A DNA stretch of 64,000 nucleotides from Clostridium sp. 'deep sea' (GTDB lineage Bacteria > Bacillota > UBA994 > PWPR01). Below the pieces are notes generated by a model. The model had not been told where the DNA came from. It was given only the letters and a program-made list of their open reading frames with translations, and did not search any database. Below, one piece after another: positions 4,535 to 51,117 of this stretch. The first letter of the stretch is position 1; the number at the start of each line of letters is the position of its first letter. Made by a program: the position numbers and the translations under genes. Location of the stretch: positions 1,364,001-1,428,000 of the forward strand of contig NZ_CP063353.1 of NCBI RefSeq assembly GCF_014931565.1, read 5' to 3'.

Positions 4535-4740
4535 TTTATTGAAATAAGAAAAGGCAGGTTTCCTGACTTACAGCTTAATTTACTCTCTTTCCTTCCCAGA
4601 TTACTCCAGTGGTTACAAGATTTCATTGCTGCTTACAGTAGCGGGGGCTGCAATAGATTTACACTATTTTCCCTATTACCTCAATTACGAGCACCTTTTC
4701 TATGCCAAAGTTAGTATATGGCAATTACTCTCAATATTCA
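4535..4740 (-). promoter_or_regulatory. cobalamin riboswitch
   Basis: The leftward strand carries recognisable cobalamin-aptamer landmarks in order: AAAGGTGC near the 5' end (about 4690-4697), GCAGCCCCCGCTACTG (about 4640-4655), then CCACTGG and the 3' closing stem AGTCAGGAAACCTGCC (about 4553-4568). An intrinsic terminator follows. It precedes the importer lipoprotein gene, so B12-type ligand should switch the operon off. Exact ends are approximate. Confidence 0.93.
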
Positions 4741-19281: not shown

Positions 19282-19746
19282 TTAACAGTTATTACAGTCC
19301 TCTTCATAAAAATCAACTAAGTTATTATACATTTGTTTAAAAAACCTTTTTATTAAAGCAATTTCAACATCACTAAAGTCTGCAAATGTTTCATTTTCTA
19401 ACTGCTTTACACGCACTTCAATTTCCTCTTTAACATCTCTACCACAGTCGGTTAAATAAATTCGTGTAACCCTTAAATCAGCTGTATCTTGTTTACGAAA
19501 AACAAAACCTGCCTTTTCCATTCGCTGAATCATGCGAGTAATGGTAGCTGGCTGAAAATGTAGTGCTTCGGCTATTTCTTTTTGCTTTAAACCATCATTA
19601 TCCCACAATAAAGCTAAAATACGAGGCTGACCATGATGTAAACCTAGCTCTCTTAACAATGTTGTAGATCTATATCGGTATAAATGAACAACGTAAACAA
19701 ACAGCTCATCTAAACTTGTAGGTGCCTCATTTAAATTAAACCCCAT
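19282..19746 (-). CDS. MarR-family transcriptional regulator
   Basis: DNA-binding regulator of 154 residues with the MarR winged helix-turn-helix in residues about 50-105: LKQKEIAEALHFQPATITRMIQRMEKAGFVFRK, followed by the wing TADLRVTRIYLTDCGRDV. Flanking helices form the dimer interface. TAAGGAG precedes the start. As the first gene of the operon with the two ABC exporter halves it most likely represses them and is induced by a toxic exporter substrate; that is the usual logic of such operons and is inference. The C-terminus EEDCNNC has adjacent cysteines of unknown meaning. Confidence 0.92.
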   Translation of the reverse strand: MGFNLNEAPTSLDELFVYVVHLYRYRSTTLLRELGLHHGQPRILALLWDNDGLKQKEIAEALHFQPATITRMIQRMEKAGFVFRKQDTADLRVTRIYLTDCGRDVKEEIEVRVKQLENETFADFSDVEIALIKRFFKQMYNNLVDFYEEDCNNC

Positions 19747-19811: not shown

Positions 19812-20083
19812 AGTATGCTTCGCACAGGGGTGGGCTTGTTCCTTTGGAACTTGCGTGGTGGGTATCCTCTAGGAATACGGGGTGGACTCACTAAAGCTCG
19901 TGGGGTGGATTTGCTTTGCAAATGGTAGACAGACATCGCTTAGCTTACGTGAGTAGTATTAAAGTGAGCATATAACCCGCGAACCAAAGGTGAGCCCAAA
20001 CCGTGCAGAGCAAAAGCTCAAACCCATCCCGAATATGACATGTCATATTCCCACCCCACGATGTTCAAAGAACGAGTCCTCAC
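19812..20083. repeat. palindrome-chain array A
   Basis: A chain of short hairpins with different stems: GTTCC-TTT-GGAAC (19838-19850), GTATCC-TCTA-GGAATAC (19862-19878), ATTTGC-TTT-GCAAAT (19909-19923), GAGC-AAAA-GCTC (20008-20019), the 20-base perfect palindrome at 20031-20050, and GTTC-AAA-GAAC (20063-20073). Spacers in the left half are G-rich (GGGGTGGG, GGTGGG, GGGGTGG twice), whereas in the right half they are the complement (GAGCCCAAACC, CCCATCCC, CCCACCCC). The element can therefore also fold back on itself. Arrays B and C share this plan. Confidence 0.85.
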
Positions 20084-20121
20084 CAAAAAAAAAGATTTGC
20101 TGTTAAGCAAATCTCTTTTTT
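20083..20121. terminator. bidirectional terminator
   Basis: AGATTTGCT and AGCAAATCT form a perfect stem flanked by A-run and T-run. It directly follows the stop of the leftward amidohydrolase gene. Confidence 0.9.
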
Positions 20122-21729
20122 TTAGTAAACTTGTTTTCCACCTACATAGGTCGCTGTAACCTTAGTATTCTTAATATCTTGTGAATTTATTGTTACTATA
20201 TCTTTATTTAATGTTATAAAATCTGCTAGCAGGCCTTTTTTAATCTCACCTTTATGTTTTTCTGCTTTTTCAGCATAAGCTGAACCTTTGGTGAATAGTT
20301 CTATTGCTTCCAGTGGTGTTAGTTTTTCTTCTGGTCTCCAGCCGTTTTCGGGCATGTTATTTATATCTTGTCTGGTTACGGCGGCAGCTATTCCTAAAAT
20401 AGGATTACAGGGTTCTACTGGTGAGTCTGAGCCACCGGCTGTCACTATACCCATCTCTCGCATAGTTTTCCATGGGTATGTTTGACTTGCTCTAGCTTTT
20501 CCTAATCGTTGTTCTACAAAGTGCATATCTGTAGGAACAAAGATTGGTTGTATATCACAAACAACTGCAAGCTGCTTCATTTGTTCTAAAATATGTGGGT
20601 TTGTAATTTGAGCATGAATGATACGTGGACGCGCATCTTCTACTGGGCTTTCTGTTAGTATTATTTTATAAGCATTAAGTAGTTTTTGAATAGCTAAATC
20701 TCCTATGGCATGCGCTGCTAGTTGTAAACCATAACTATGGGCGCGTTTAAACGTTTCGTTTATTTCTTCTTGGCTCATGGTAGACATACCACTAGTTGTA
20801 TAATCATCACTATATGGGGCATGCATTAAAGCTGTTCTGCCGCCTAAAGAACCATCTGTCATTAGTTTTAAAGGTCCGTATGTGACAGTATGTTCAGGAA
20901 AATTATAGTTCTTTTTAATTTCCATATATGAGTCTATTTCTGCTGGTTTACCCAATAACACCTGATGATTAACTCTAATAGGTAAACTACCCTCGGCTTG
21001 AACCTCTTGATAAGCCTGCAATATTGTATCCATGGCATGAATAGAGCTTAAATCATTGCTCTGGACTGAAGTTAATCCTAAACTAGCGGCTAAATTAGCA
21101 CCTTTAATAATACACCTCTTGTAATCTTCTTTACCAGCTTTAGGAATTAAATGAGCCACTATTCCACAGGCATTTTCTCTTAAAATCCCTGTAGGAACAC
21201 CGTTTTCATCTAAATCGATATGACCTCCATTAGGCTGCTGAATTTTACCTTTCATTAAACCAGCCATTTCTAAAGCGCAGGTATTTGCCACAGAGATATG
21301 TCCACAAGCTCTACGTAAATATACAGGTTTATAACTACAAACTTTATCTAAATCATGTCTACTAGGCATTTTACGGTCAGCAAAATAGGCCTGATTCCAA
21401 CCTCTACCTAAAATCCAATCTAAATCTTGATTATTATTTATAAACTCTATACACTTTTTTACTAACTCTTCACGTGAGGTTGTACTAGCTAAATTCACTT
21501 GCTCAAGTGATCTGCCAACACCCATTAAATGAATATGACTATCGTTTAAGCCAGGTAAAACTGTAACACCCTGTAAGTCGATTACTTCAGTTGATTTAGT
21601 TTTATATTTTAATATTTCCTCAGTACTGCCAACAGCTAAAAATCTATTATTTTCAACAACAAAGGCCTCTGCACGCGGTTTGTTTTTATCCACGGTATAC
21701 ACATTACCATTAATAAAGAGTTTTTGCAT
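20122..21729 (-). CDS. YtcJ-type metal-dependent amidohydrolase
   Basis: Member of the amidohydrolase superfamily, YtcJ/exoenzyme-regulatory (AepA-like) group, 535 residues. It begins with the composite beta-sandwich LFINGNVYTVDKNKPRAEAF, then the metal-binding HxH in GLNDSHIHLMG near residues 65-75. A second part contains LKLMTDGSLGGRTALM, an AHAIGDLAIQ histidine region and the late aspartate in TAGGSDSPVEP. Such enzymes hydrolyse amide or related bonds of unknown substrates. The ATG at 21729 is chosen because GGAGGGG precedes it; the frame from 21816 has no site. It is monocistronic between array A and mnmH. Confidence 0.88.
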   Translation of the reverse strand: MQKLFINGNVYTVDKNKPRAEAFVVENNRFLAVGSTEEILKYKTKSTEVIDLQGVTVLPGLNDSHIHLMGVGRSLEQVNLASTTSREELVKKCIEFINNNQDLDWILGRGWNQAYFADRKMPSRHDLDKVCSYKPVYLRRACGHISVANTCALEMAGLMKGKIQQPNGGHIDLDENGVPTGILRENACGIVAHLIPKAGKEDYKRCIIKGANLAASLGLTSVQSNDLSSIHAMDTILQAYQEVQAEGSLPIRVNHQVLLGKPAEIDSYMEIKKNYNFPEHTVTYGPLKLMTDGSLGGRTALMHAPYSDDYTTSGMSTMSQEEINETFKRAHSYGLQLAAHAIGDLAIQKLLNAYKIILTESPVEDARPRIIHAQITNPHILEQMKQLAVVCDIQPIFVPTDMHFVEQRLGKARASQTYPWKTMREMGIVTAGGSDSPVEPCNPILGIAAAVTRQDINNMPENGWRPEEKLTPLEAIELFTKGSAYAEKAEKHKGEIKKGLLADFITLNKDIVTINSQDIKNTKVTATYVGGKQVY

Positions 21730-26309: not shown

Positions 26310-26532
26310 TGCGATGGAGTTGGCATGCCTGTAGCATACGGCTTGGGCTTGCCTTTGGCAAGCGGGGTGGATATTTCTAAAGAAATATGGTTTAGACTTC
26401 GTGGAATAATACTATAAAAATAAAAAAACGCTAATTAGCGTTTTATGATTACCGTAAGCATTTTATTGCGCACCCCGTCAAGAGCGATAGCTCAAGCCCA
26501 CTCCGTATTTAACTTATTAAATACCCCCACCG
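26310..26532. repeat. palindrome-chain array B
   Basis: Hairpins with unrelated stems: GCTTGCC-TTT-GGCAAGC (26347-26363), ATATTTCT-AA-AGAAATAT (26371-26388), CGCTAATTAGCG (26429-26440, flanked by A and T runs), GAGC-GATA-GCTC (26482-26493) and GTATTTAA-CTTA-TTAAATAC (26505-26524). Left-half spacers read CGGCTTGGG, CGGGGTGG; right-half spacers read CACCCCG, AAGCCCACTCCG, CCCCCACCG, the complement. The turning point is near the central A/T-flanked palindrome. Same architecture as arrays A and C. Confidence 0.85.
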
Positions 26533-26578
26533 TGAGTTTTAACTAAAAAAACCACCACCTCAATCTGTGGAGCTTTTA

Positions 26579-42628: not shown

Positions 42629-42682
42629 ATTATCCTCCGCAAATAACTATTACTTTAACGTTAACTATAGTATAACATATTG

Positions 42683-42915
42683 GTTCGCTTTGCTCACGGA
42701 TTGGGCTTGCCTTACAGCTTCGCAGTTTGGGTATTTCACTATGTGAAACACGGGGTGGGCTTGAGCTAACGCTCTTCACGTTTTGGATTCGCTTCGCTCA
42801 TGGTTAAAAACTTGCTTTAGCAAGCCTACCGTCTGCGTTAGCAGACCCATACCGTATGCCGTGGCATACTCACTCCGTTTGCCTATGGCAAACCTATTCC
42901 GTGAGCGAAGCGAAC
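42683..42915. repeat. palindrome-chain array C with terminal inverted repeats
   Basis: The ends GTTCGCTTTGCTCACGGA (from 42683) and the complement of TCCGTGAGCGAAGCGAAC (ending 42915) match at all but one base, so the whole element is an inverted repeat. Inside are hairpins TTTCAC-TAT-GTGAAA (42734-42748), GAGC-TAAC-GCTC (42763-42774), CTTGC-TTTA-GCAAG (42811-42824), GTCTGC-GTTA-GCAGAC (42831-42846), GTATGCC-GT-GGCATAC (42854-42869) and GTTTGCC-TAT-GGCAAAC (42877-42893). Left spacers read CGGATTGGG, CGGGGTGGG; right spacers CCTACCG, CCCATACCG, CTCACTCCG, CTATTCCG. The turn is near 42805. Confidence 0.9.
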
Positions 42916-49037: not shown

Positions 49038-49132
49038 TTATATCACCTCTATTACAGTATCTCAATAATGCAATAAAGTAAAGTACAAAATAAATAATTC
49101 TCTAGTAGTTATTACTCCAAAACATAAATACC

Positions 49133-49195
49133 CGAACGCTGGGGACGGGTGATTTTGTTCGGAAAACGAACATTTGCACCCGTCCCCAACGTTCG
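49133..49195. repeat. REP-like palindrome, copy 1
   Basis: 63-base hairpin: CGAACGCTGGGGACGGGTG pairs with CACCCGTCCCCAACGTTCG and encloses TTTTGTTCGGAAAACGAACA, itself an inner hairpin GTTCG/CGAAC. Nearly identical to the copy at 50208-50270, flanking the Y1 transposase gene. Confidence 0.9.
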
Positions 49196-49332
49196 TCAGT
49201 TATCTCAAGTTAATCAATCTCCAGTTTTACATTGCTCTATTAGTTAAATATTGTACTAAAAATTGTTAGCTCAATAGTTTTTCTCTTGTACCTTCTTTAT
49301 TATTTATTTCTTAACCTAACTCCTTTTATCTA

Positions 49333-49392
49333 AACGCTAGGGATGGGTGATTTTGTTCGGAATGTGAACAGATGAACCTGTATTTAACGTTC
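49333..49392. repeat. REP-like palindrome, degenerate copy
   Basis: Begins AACGCTAGGGATGGGTGATTT, matching the left arm and loop of the other copies, but the right arm has decayed (AACCTGTATTTAACGTTC). It overlaps the last codons of the transposase gene, whose C-terminus is thus encoded by the repeat. Confidence 0.75.
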
Positions 49393-50173
49393 TTTCATAA
49401 TTTTTTAGATACCTATCAACCGCATTATATTGAGTCTCTAACAAGCATGCTGTTTTTCTCAGTGACAAACCACATTCTCTTACTAACATGTAACATAATT
49501 CATTCATTAAATAACTATTCATATGTAACTGTTTTGCACTTGTAATACTATATTTTTTTATGTACTCTTGTCTTAAATTATAACCCATTATGTATTTTAT
49601 CTTTTCAGTATCCTCTTTTATCTCTAAATATATTTCATTATCATCTTGCTTATGAAAATCAGCAAAACTTTTGAGATTGTTACTAAAACACTTTAGTATA
49701 AACTTTTTTTCTTCATTATAAACAAAGTTTCTTTTATGCAAATACTCTATGTAACTACTCCAAATATAATCTTGGGCCTGATTAACTATATTCGCTTTTA
49801 CAGGGTTATTATGTATGTATCTAACATTACATTTAAGGTATTCATCCGATTCAATAGCTTTGCTTTTAAATCTATTATTAAATAGTGCCCCTATTCTGTC
49901 ATACTTATTATTATAGTAGGTAGCATACATGCCACTCACTACCTTAATAGCATAAGACATATCTTCTACATGTGCATGTAATATTAAATGTACATGATTA
50001 CTCATAATACACCAGGCTGTTATTTTTATTTTACAATCATCTTGTTGTTTTTTTAATAATTGTAAAAATTTTTCTTTATCTGTGTCATTTACGAAAATAT
50101 CTTTTTTATTAATACCTCGTAACATAACATGATAATATCCAGTTGAGCTTTGCTGTCTTGCTTGCCTTGCCAC
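49337..50173 (-). CDS. REP-associated Y1 (HUH) transposase, RAYT-like
   Basis: Single-strand HUH transposase of the TnpA-REP/IS200-like (Y1_Tnp) family, about 278 residues. The HUH histidines are in WCIMSNHVHLILH near residues 57-69 and the catalytic tyrosine is likely in ECLKCNVRY/RYIHNNPVKA near 115-130. A C-terminal helix-turn-helix (GLSLRKTACLLETQYNAVDRYLK, core) is typical of Firmicute members. I set a GTG start at 50173 because GGAGGTG lies 5-6 bases before it, while the frame from 50254 extends through a REP palindrome. It is flanked by REP-like repeats, so they are probably its cognate substrates. Confidence 0.88.
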   Translation of the reverse strand: MARQARQQSSTGYYHVMLRGINKKDIFVNDTDKEKFLQLLKKQQDDCKIKITAWCIMSNHVHLILHAHVEDMSYAIKVVSGMYATYYNNKYDRIGALFNNRFKSKAIESDEYLKCNVRYIHNNPVKANIVNQAQDYIWSSYIEYLHKRNFVYNEEKKFILKCFSNNLKSFADFHKQDDNEIYLEIKEDTEKIKYIMGYNLRQEYIKKYSITSAKQLHMNSYLMNELCYMLVRECGLSLRKTACLLETQYNAVDRYLKNYERTLNTGSSVHIPNKITHP

Positions 50174-50207
50174 ATTTACACCTCCATTAATTAAATATGG
50201 AACACTG

Positions 50208-50270
50208 CGAACGTTGGGGACGGGTGATTTTGTTCGGAAAACGAACATTTGCACCCGTCCCCAGCGTTCG
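50208..50270. repeat. REP-like palindrome, copy 2
   Basis: Same 63-base hairpin as copy 1 with the arm difference exchanged (CGTTGG on the left, CCAGCG on the right), so G-U/A-C changes lie at the same stem position in both. It lies just upstream of the transposase start. Confidence 0.9.
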
Positions 50271-50360
50271 GGAATTTTTAAATATATAGTGATAATTTAA
50301 TAATTATAGTTAAATATATATACATTTTATCAAAATATTTTTAATTTGTAATTAATAAAA

Positions 50361-51009: not shown

Positions 51010-51025
51010 CCTAAGTCAGAAATAT

Positions 51026-51117
51026 ACAGCGGACGCGATGTTTTATCGCGAAAATTATTCTTCGTCTAAAGACTACATCCCATTCTTTAGCACTTTACGC
51101 AAAACATCTACTCTGTT
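51026..51117 (-). promoter_or_regulatory. tetrahydrofolate (THF) riboswitch
   Basis: The leftward RNA reads GAGTAGATGTTTTGCGTAAAGTG, GAATGGGATGTAGTC, GACGAAG and at the 3' side CATCGCGTCCGCTG. These match the order and spacing of the THF aptamer (GAGUAG..GCGUUAAGUG, GAAUGGGAUGUCGUC, ACGAAG, GCAUCCGCUC). It controls folT. Ends approximate. Confidence 0.92.

Follow-up and report, generated by a model that had tools for sequence, protein, structure and literature searches.

Chains of unlike hairpins joined by constant seven-nucleotide linkers form a dispersed intergenic repeat family in Clostridium sp. 'deep sea'

Architecture of array A and of its units

Between the 5' end of a MarR-type regulator gene (19282-19746, minus strand) and the intrinsic terminator of an amidohydrolase-like gene (20085-20123, minus strand, 17-nt arms that are 94% complementary), the genome of Clostridium sp. 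'deep sea' carries a chain of hairpins that raises the question how stems can differ from one hairpin to the next and yet stay self-complementary, with constant spacers between them. Positions without further label refer to the window, i.e. the whole stretch of 64,000 nucleotides that was analyzed. The preliminary description had placed this chain, here called array A, at 19812-20083; the array is real, and its bounds were refined to 19814-20084. On the minus strand it begins directly after the T-tract of the amidohydrolase-like gene's terminator. The linkers have the form GGNNTGG in the left half and CCANNCC in the right half, and the intervening hairpins are unrelated in sequence. Array A contains three strict units, whereas 1000 dinucleotide shuffles gave 0.016 on average and never more than 1.

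The unit consists of the 7-nt linker GGNNTGG and a hairpin that is closed by the bases beside the linkers. The spacer motif (A/C)CGGRRTGGG proposed initially had correctly captured constant linkers but is too narrow; GGNNTGG is the better consensus, because the closing pair (G:C or A:T) takes up the flanking bases. Two kinds of hairpins were distinguished. Stems of kind 1 are perfect and mostly 7-9 bp long, whereas in kind 2 a 2x3 internal loop separates two outer pairs from a short inner stem. The internal loop (TY/NTC) mostly has TC or TT on one side and NTC or TC on the other; the inner stems comprise at least 25 different sequences. The two kinds alternate along the chain, with unlike neighbours in 37 of 50 cases (P=0.0003). 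A full copy is built of two half-chains in inverted order around an asymmetric core of two hairpins, with up to 4-5 hairpins per half; half-copies terminate in the cap GGGCTGGCGCGG and a tail.

Linker-to-linker spacing varies from 13 to 22 nt, a variation that fits recognition of a folded strand better than phased binding to the double helix. The loop-closing pairs are strongly biased (37 C:G, 1 G:C), the loops of the GG strand are rich in T, and the internal loops are conserved, reading as tandem G-A on the CC strand. The bias together with the T-rich loops points to selection for stable folding with a strand polarity. Selection for hairpin structure and a templated process, the two origins proposed at the outset, are both viable, but templating alone would be insufficient in view of the conserved internal loops and the closing bias. 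The mirrored spacers also reported there exist as GG-type linkers left and CC-type linkers right of the core; however, the halves are not selected to pair, as linkers with equal index on either side of the core matched in 15 of 41 comparisons compared with 12.8 after shuffling (P=0.24), i.e. without cross-half covariation. A fixed pattern of spacer, gap and reverse spacer gave no match, because the halves do not stand directly face to face.

For searches a covariance model of 60 positions, R2, was built from 18 copies aligned by sequence only; it comprises linker, kind-2 hairpin, linker, kind-1 hairpin and linker. In array A, a weak outermost hairpin, TATGCTTCGCACA (19814-19826, strand unassigned, defined from its letters), precedes the left half-element (19827-19930, plus strand; R2 match 19827-19885, plus strand, 45.4 bits, E 6e-8). 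The latter contains the linkers GGGGTGG (19827-19833), GTGGTGG (19855-19861), GGGGTGG (19879-19885), GGGGTGG (19902-19908) and GGTAGAC (19924-19930), between which lie hairpins of kind 2 (19834-19854), kind 1 (19862-19878), kind 2 (19886-19901) and kind 1 (19909-19923). The asymmetric core (19933-19974, plus strand), which is common to many other full copies, is composed of ACATCGCTTAGCTTACGTGA (19933-19952) and a degenerate second hairpin, TAAAGTGAGCATATA (19960-19974). The right half-element follows in reverse orientation (19976-20084, minus strand; R2 match 20084-20024, minus strand, 65.3 bits, E 3e-12) with the linkers CCAAACC (19996-20002), CCATCCC (20024-20030), CCACCCC (20051-20057) and CCTCACC (20078-20084) and hairpins at 19976-19995, 20003-20023, 20031-20050 and 20058-20077.

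Two more arrays were found in the window. The second is a full array with the same grammar between divergent genes (42682-42915, strand unassigned), matched by R2 at 42698-42758 on the plus strand (E 3.5e-10) and at 42900-42847 on the minus strand (E 6e-4); its DNA fold has a z of -5.9. The third (26322-26558) has a left half at 26322-26395 (plus strand; R2 match 26340-26395, E 8e-9) and a right half at 26471-26558 (minus strand; R2 match 26558-26498, E 7e-7). Apart from these arrays, the window holds a cobalamin riboswitch (4536-4713) and a tetrahydrofolate riboswitch (51025-51117), both on the minus strand.

A repeat family and its genomic sites

Array A is one copy of a dispersed, intergenic, non-coding repeat family, which to our knowledge has not been described before. 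The hairpin-chain repeat occupies about 45-60 places in its own genome. A search of the 3.83-Mb genome gave 40 exact matches of CGGGGTGGG and 3 of the reversed control, and nearly all CGGGGTGGG sites showed the same architecture when they were read. With R2, 103 matches at E<=0.1 were obtained in the own genome (3.8 Mb). The genus is represented by just one further genome in the sample, here called the sister, which had 4 matches, and 396 genomes from the rest of the phylum had 0. This genome-wide search, which had been suggested from the start, rules out a local accident and confirms that the spacers are conserved. In a pattern scan of named genomes, the same units were also found in the metagenome-assembled genome Bacillota bacterium PL25a_bin.78, where the copies have nearly the same three stems in common, which fits a recent expansion from a single source. 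The fetched loci together contain 167 units compared with 1-4 in shuffled loci; these shuffle controls exclude a chance origin of the hairpin chains. The Rfam search returned no family above the gathering score for the hairpin-chain elements, and searches of phage, plasmid and viral collections revealed no similar DNA. A CRISPR identity was rejected, because 7-nt stretches form the constant part and what varies between them are palindromes of 13-22 nt.

The elements often lie close to transcription terminators. A terminator stem ended within 15 nt of 19 among 69 outer element ends compared with 76 of 2341 random nearby positions (odds ratio 11, P=3e-12); since the control positions include coding DNA, this enrichment is an upper estimate and the abutting distances are more telling. 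The first linker typically follows the T-tract directly, for example in GGGTCGATGACCCTTTTTTATTTT|GGGGTGG and GCTCGCGACAATGCGAGCTGTTTTTTTT|GGTTTGG. The elements are situated behind, not before, the terminators, and the orientation of the core relative to the terminator varies among copies. The neighbouring genes are co-directional in 26, convergent in 13 and divergent in 2 cases.

Comparison with the sister species revealed six loci that lack the element there, namely array A, the second array and the loci at 641, 643-644, 651 and 1473 kb. At all six the gene order is kept and the interval between the aligned flanks is shorter, for example 49 bases compared with 440 in the own genome at 641 kb; neither the R2 model nor inspection by eye detected an element in these sister intervals. 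Identity to the sister is about 70% in genes, and its intergenic DNA is too diverged for base-by-base insertion points. At single loci, loss in the sister may partly explain the absence. For the third window array, the sister has its own element with other stems just upstream of the matching regulator gene. Both element ends begin with GGNNTGG in inverted order; no partner transposon was found, and no target-site duplication either at junctions that sister divergence makes unreadable. The elements of the sister genome (L187 6600-7219, L189-L195, L200) have a long tail with many TTGGCAATNGGTTGGCGATTG motifs, which is apparently a further repeat specific to the genus.

Covariation and turnover of the stems

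The claim that the stems differ and yet stay self-complementary between constant spacers was borne out by the family. In an alignment of 18 copies made by sequence (A1), 96.9% of the cells were paired compared with 71.7% in shuffles. Two-sided changes occurred in 12 of 13 pairs, one-sided standard changes such as G-C to G-U in 0 cells, and pairing dropped to about 30% when the partner was shifted by one base. The six outer pairs of the kind-1 hairpins were counted in 73 distinct examples; 429 of 437 (98%) were Watson-Crick, 4 were AC/CA, 4 others and 0 GT/TG. The closing pair, counted in the 167 units taken without forcing a pair, was GC in 107, AT in 40, AC in 4 and GT in 0. The abutting terminator stems contain 8 GU among 148 pairs compared with 0 of 437 in the chain stems (Fisher P=1.5e-5, a value limited by the non-independence of stems and by a terminator finder that allows GU). 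Terminators act as RNA. We read the absence of GT from the chain stems as pairing that is kept at the DNA level.

The proposal that the array is not a simple copy of one REP sequence was also confirmed, because the family draws on a recurring library of stems that is combined as a mosaic. The 7-nt arms comprised 74 distinct sequences among 138 units. Where the same arm occurred at two places, the next inner arm was common in only 1 of 35 comparisons, hence the hairpins behave as exchangeable cassettes. Stems of the GTGTTCC type are found with six different loops. Identical stems within one element were observed 0 times compared with 1.8 expected, an avoidance that is not significant (P=0.14).

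Single steps of this turnover can be followed among closely related copies. The tandem half-copies 1490a and 1490b (1490 kb) share the cap, the visible tail and the second hairpin, but the third hairpin is wholly unlike, GTAGCTTCGCTAC in one and GTAACCCTGTGGGTTAC in the other. Copy 1471b has ATAACCCTGTGGGTTAT, which equals GTAACCCTGTGGGTTAC with the closing pair A:T in place of G:C, and the tail of 1471c has 89% identity to that of 1490a. In one hairpin, the arms AATACC/GGTATT of 1471c and 1512 correspond to AATGCC/GGCATT of 1490, i.e. both arms changed in a coupled manner around an unaltered loop. Template switching is known to make and keep perfect stems by two-sided changes without intermediates (PMC8794818). 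Four tandem half-elements with a period of about 265 were also noticed at 643.5-644.6 kb of the genome (locus L061 7500-8560), downstream of a pseudouridine synthase gene; they have a common tail with the terminator-like hairpin GGACGCCAATTGGGCGTC.

Relation to known elements and possible origin

Several known systems resemble the hairpin chains in part. Integron attC sites are recognized as folded single-stranded DNA by their structure and unpaired bases, with most of the stem sequence free; unlike attC sites, the chains have no gene cassettes and a different motif, and no integrase was linked to them here. MITEs of the ERIC/IRU, BOX and Correia types are intergenic, imperfectly palindromic, modular and about 100-300 bp long, and the chains share with MITEs the many dispersed copies without coding capacity and an insertion polymorphism, seen as the six loci that are empty in the sister; these MITEs, however, are conserved in primary sequence from end to end. 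Group IIC introns insert directly behind intrinsic terminators, but the chains contain no ribozyme or reverse transcriptase and have no Rfam match. REPINs and REP-BIMEs are likewise dispersed and extragenic, with inverted half-units, compensatory hairpins and tandem clusters, and are probably mobilized in trans (PMC3116915; PMC2817692). The chains correspond to REP/REPIN elements in being extragenic, inverted in pairs, hairpin-forming and present in many copies, whereas they lack the conserved palindromic core of about 16 nt: REP conserves a stem-forming 16-mer, the chain conserves 7-nt linkers and has variable stems. Unlike REPINs, the chains have up to 4-5 hairpins per half, do not flank the examined RAYT-like genes and sit behind terminators. 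Repetitive and double hairpin elements in mitochondria of fungi and sponges are also small, dispersed, non-coding and thought to be mobile, but in the sponge elements the stems are conserved and only the loops vary (PMC2800124), whereas in the chains the stems are replaced outright.

Considering these features, the family is probably, though by no means securely, best explained as a miniature, non-coding and non-autonomous mobile repeat of one genus that works like a REPIN/REP or a MITE. Copies may spread by insertion at terminator hairpins, or at single-stranded DNA or RNA 3' ends there, via a putative factor acting in trans. The element would be recognized as a folded single strand; this would fix the unpaired linkers and internal loops and leave the stem sequence free as long as it is paired. 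Whole hairpins might be exchanged between copies by short recombination through the identical linkers, template switching could transfer a change from one arm to its partner, and the turnover of stems would then proceed under selection for folding. A bolder version, which we regard as possible but doubtful, takes the chains as mobile DNA that is read by its structure, so that the fold and not the sequence would be inherited. A process acting on single-stranded DNA at terminators, whether dedicated or recruited, would exchange and rewrite the cassettes between the 7-nt linkers as whole blocks, similar to attC but without an integron.

Alternatively, the chains could be structured RNA or 3'-UTR elements (a read-through insulator, an mRNA 3'-end stabilizer or a protein-binding RNA) that were duplicated and then kept for function. 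Their vicinity to gene 3' ends, the strong covariation, the folding of array A as RNA (z -3.4 on one strand, -2.5 on the other) and the tandem G-A of the internal loops on the CC strand would suit such a role, which nevertheless appears unlikely, because one-sided G-U intermediates are missing (GT 0/437 against 8/148 in the neighbouring terminator stems), the elements stand behind rather than before the terminator with a varying core orientation, and no Rfam family exceeded the threshold. It is also quite improbable that no selection on structure exists at all and that the palindromes arose and were perfected by replication template switching and spread by duplication of neighbouring DNA. The ability of template switching to generate and maintain perfect stems (PMC8794818) and the constancy of GTGTTCC-type stems with varying loops agree with this scenario, but it leaves unexplained the fixed 7-nt linkers, the alternation of kind-1 and kind-2 hairpins (P=0.0003), the fact that the unpaired TY/NTC loop persists, the 37:1 preference of C:G over G:C and the precise placement behind terminators.

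Finally, mobilization as true REP/REPIN elements by a RAYT-like Y1 transposase of the own genome seems very improbable. The life style as short, extragenic, inverted pairs with compensatory hairpin changes is the same (PMC3116915), and the own genome contains nine Y1 transposase genes, several of which are RAYT-sized. However, the RAYT-like Y1 gene of the window (minus strand; 49805-50146 within a longer open reading frame) has another long palindrome, GAACGTTGGGGACGGGTGATTTTGTTC, at its flanks; a RAYT-style flanking by GGNNTGG hairpin arrays was not found at the 8 of 9 Y1 loci that were read, apart from a few units about 100 bp from one IS200-type gene, and the chains lack the conserved stem sequence that defines REP.

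Compensatory stem evolution is usually held to be slow and to pass through G-U intermediates. Here, scores of copies in one genome have wholly changed stems without intermediates next to fixed unpaired bases. The hairpin chains therefore represent a natural experiment to separate folding selection, template switching and cassette exchange, and they may point to a factor that reads folded single-stranded DNA beside terminators.

In the region of the window RAYT gene (49120-49200, 49330-49390, 49420-50170, 50200-50275), copies of its palindrome read GAACGYTGGGGACGGGTGATTTTGTTC ... GAACAWTTGCACCCGTCCCCAACGTTC, and a related palindrome is present at about 1512420 of the genome. The end of an IS200-type transposase gene (locus L171 1429-1881, genome about 1.4995 Mb) lies about 100 bp away from several chain units. 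At at least 8 places, an A+T-rich hairpin of 45-60 nt (approximately ATGTTTTAT-AAGGTAAYGATTTTATTMCRYWRYGYTCC-ATAAAACAT; also seen as ATGTTTTAT...GGTAAYGATTTTATT...TCCATAAAACAT) is nested inside the loop of a chain hairpin, as if it targeted these loops, which recalls insertion sequences that target REP palindromes (PMC1525189). This nested element was located near genome positions 332171, 395653, 651223, 783644, 954856, 1490492, 1490717, 1568655, 1657365 and 2487155.
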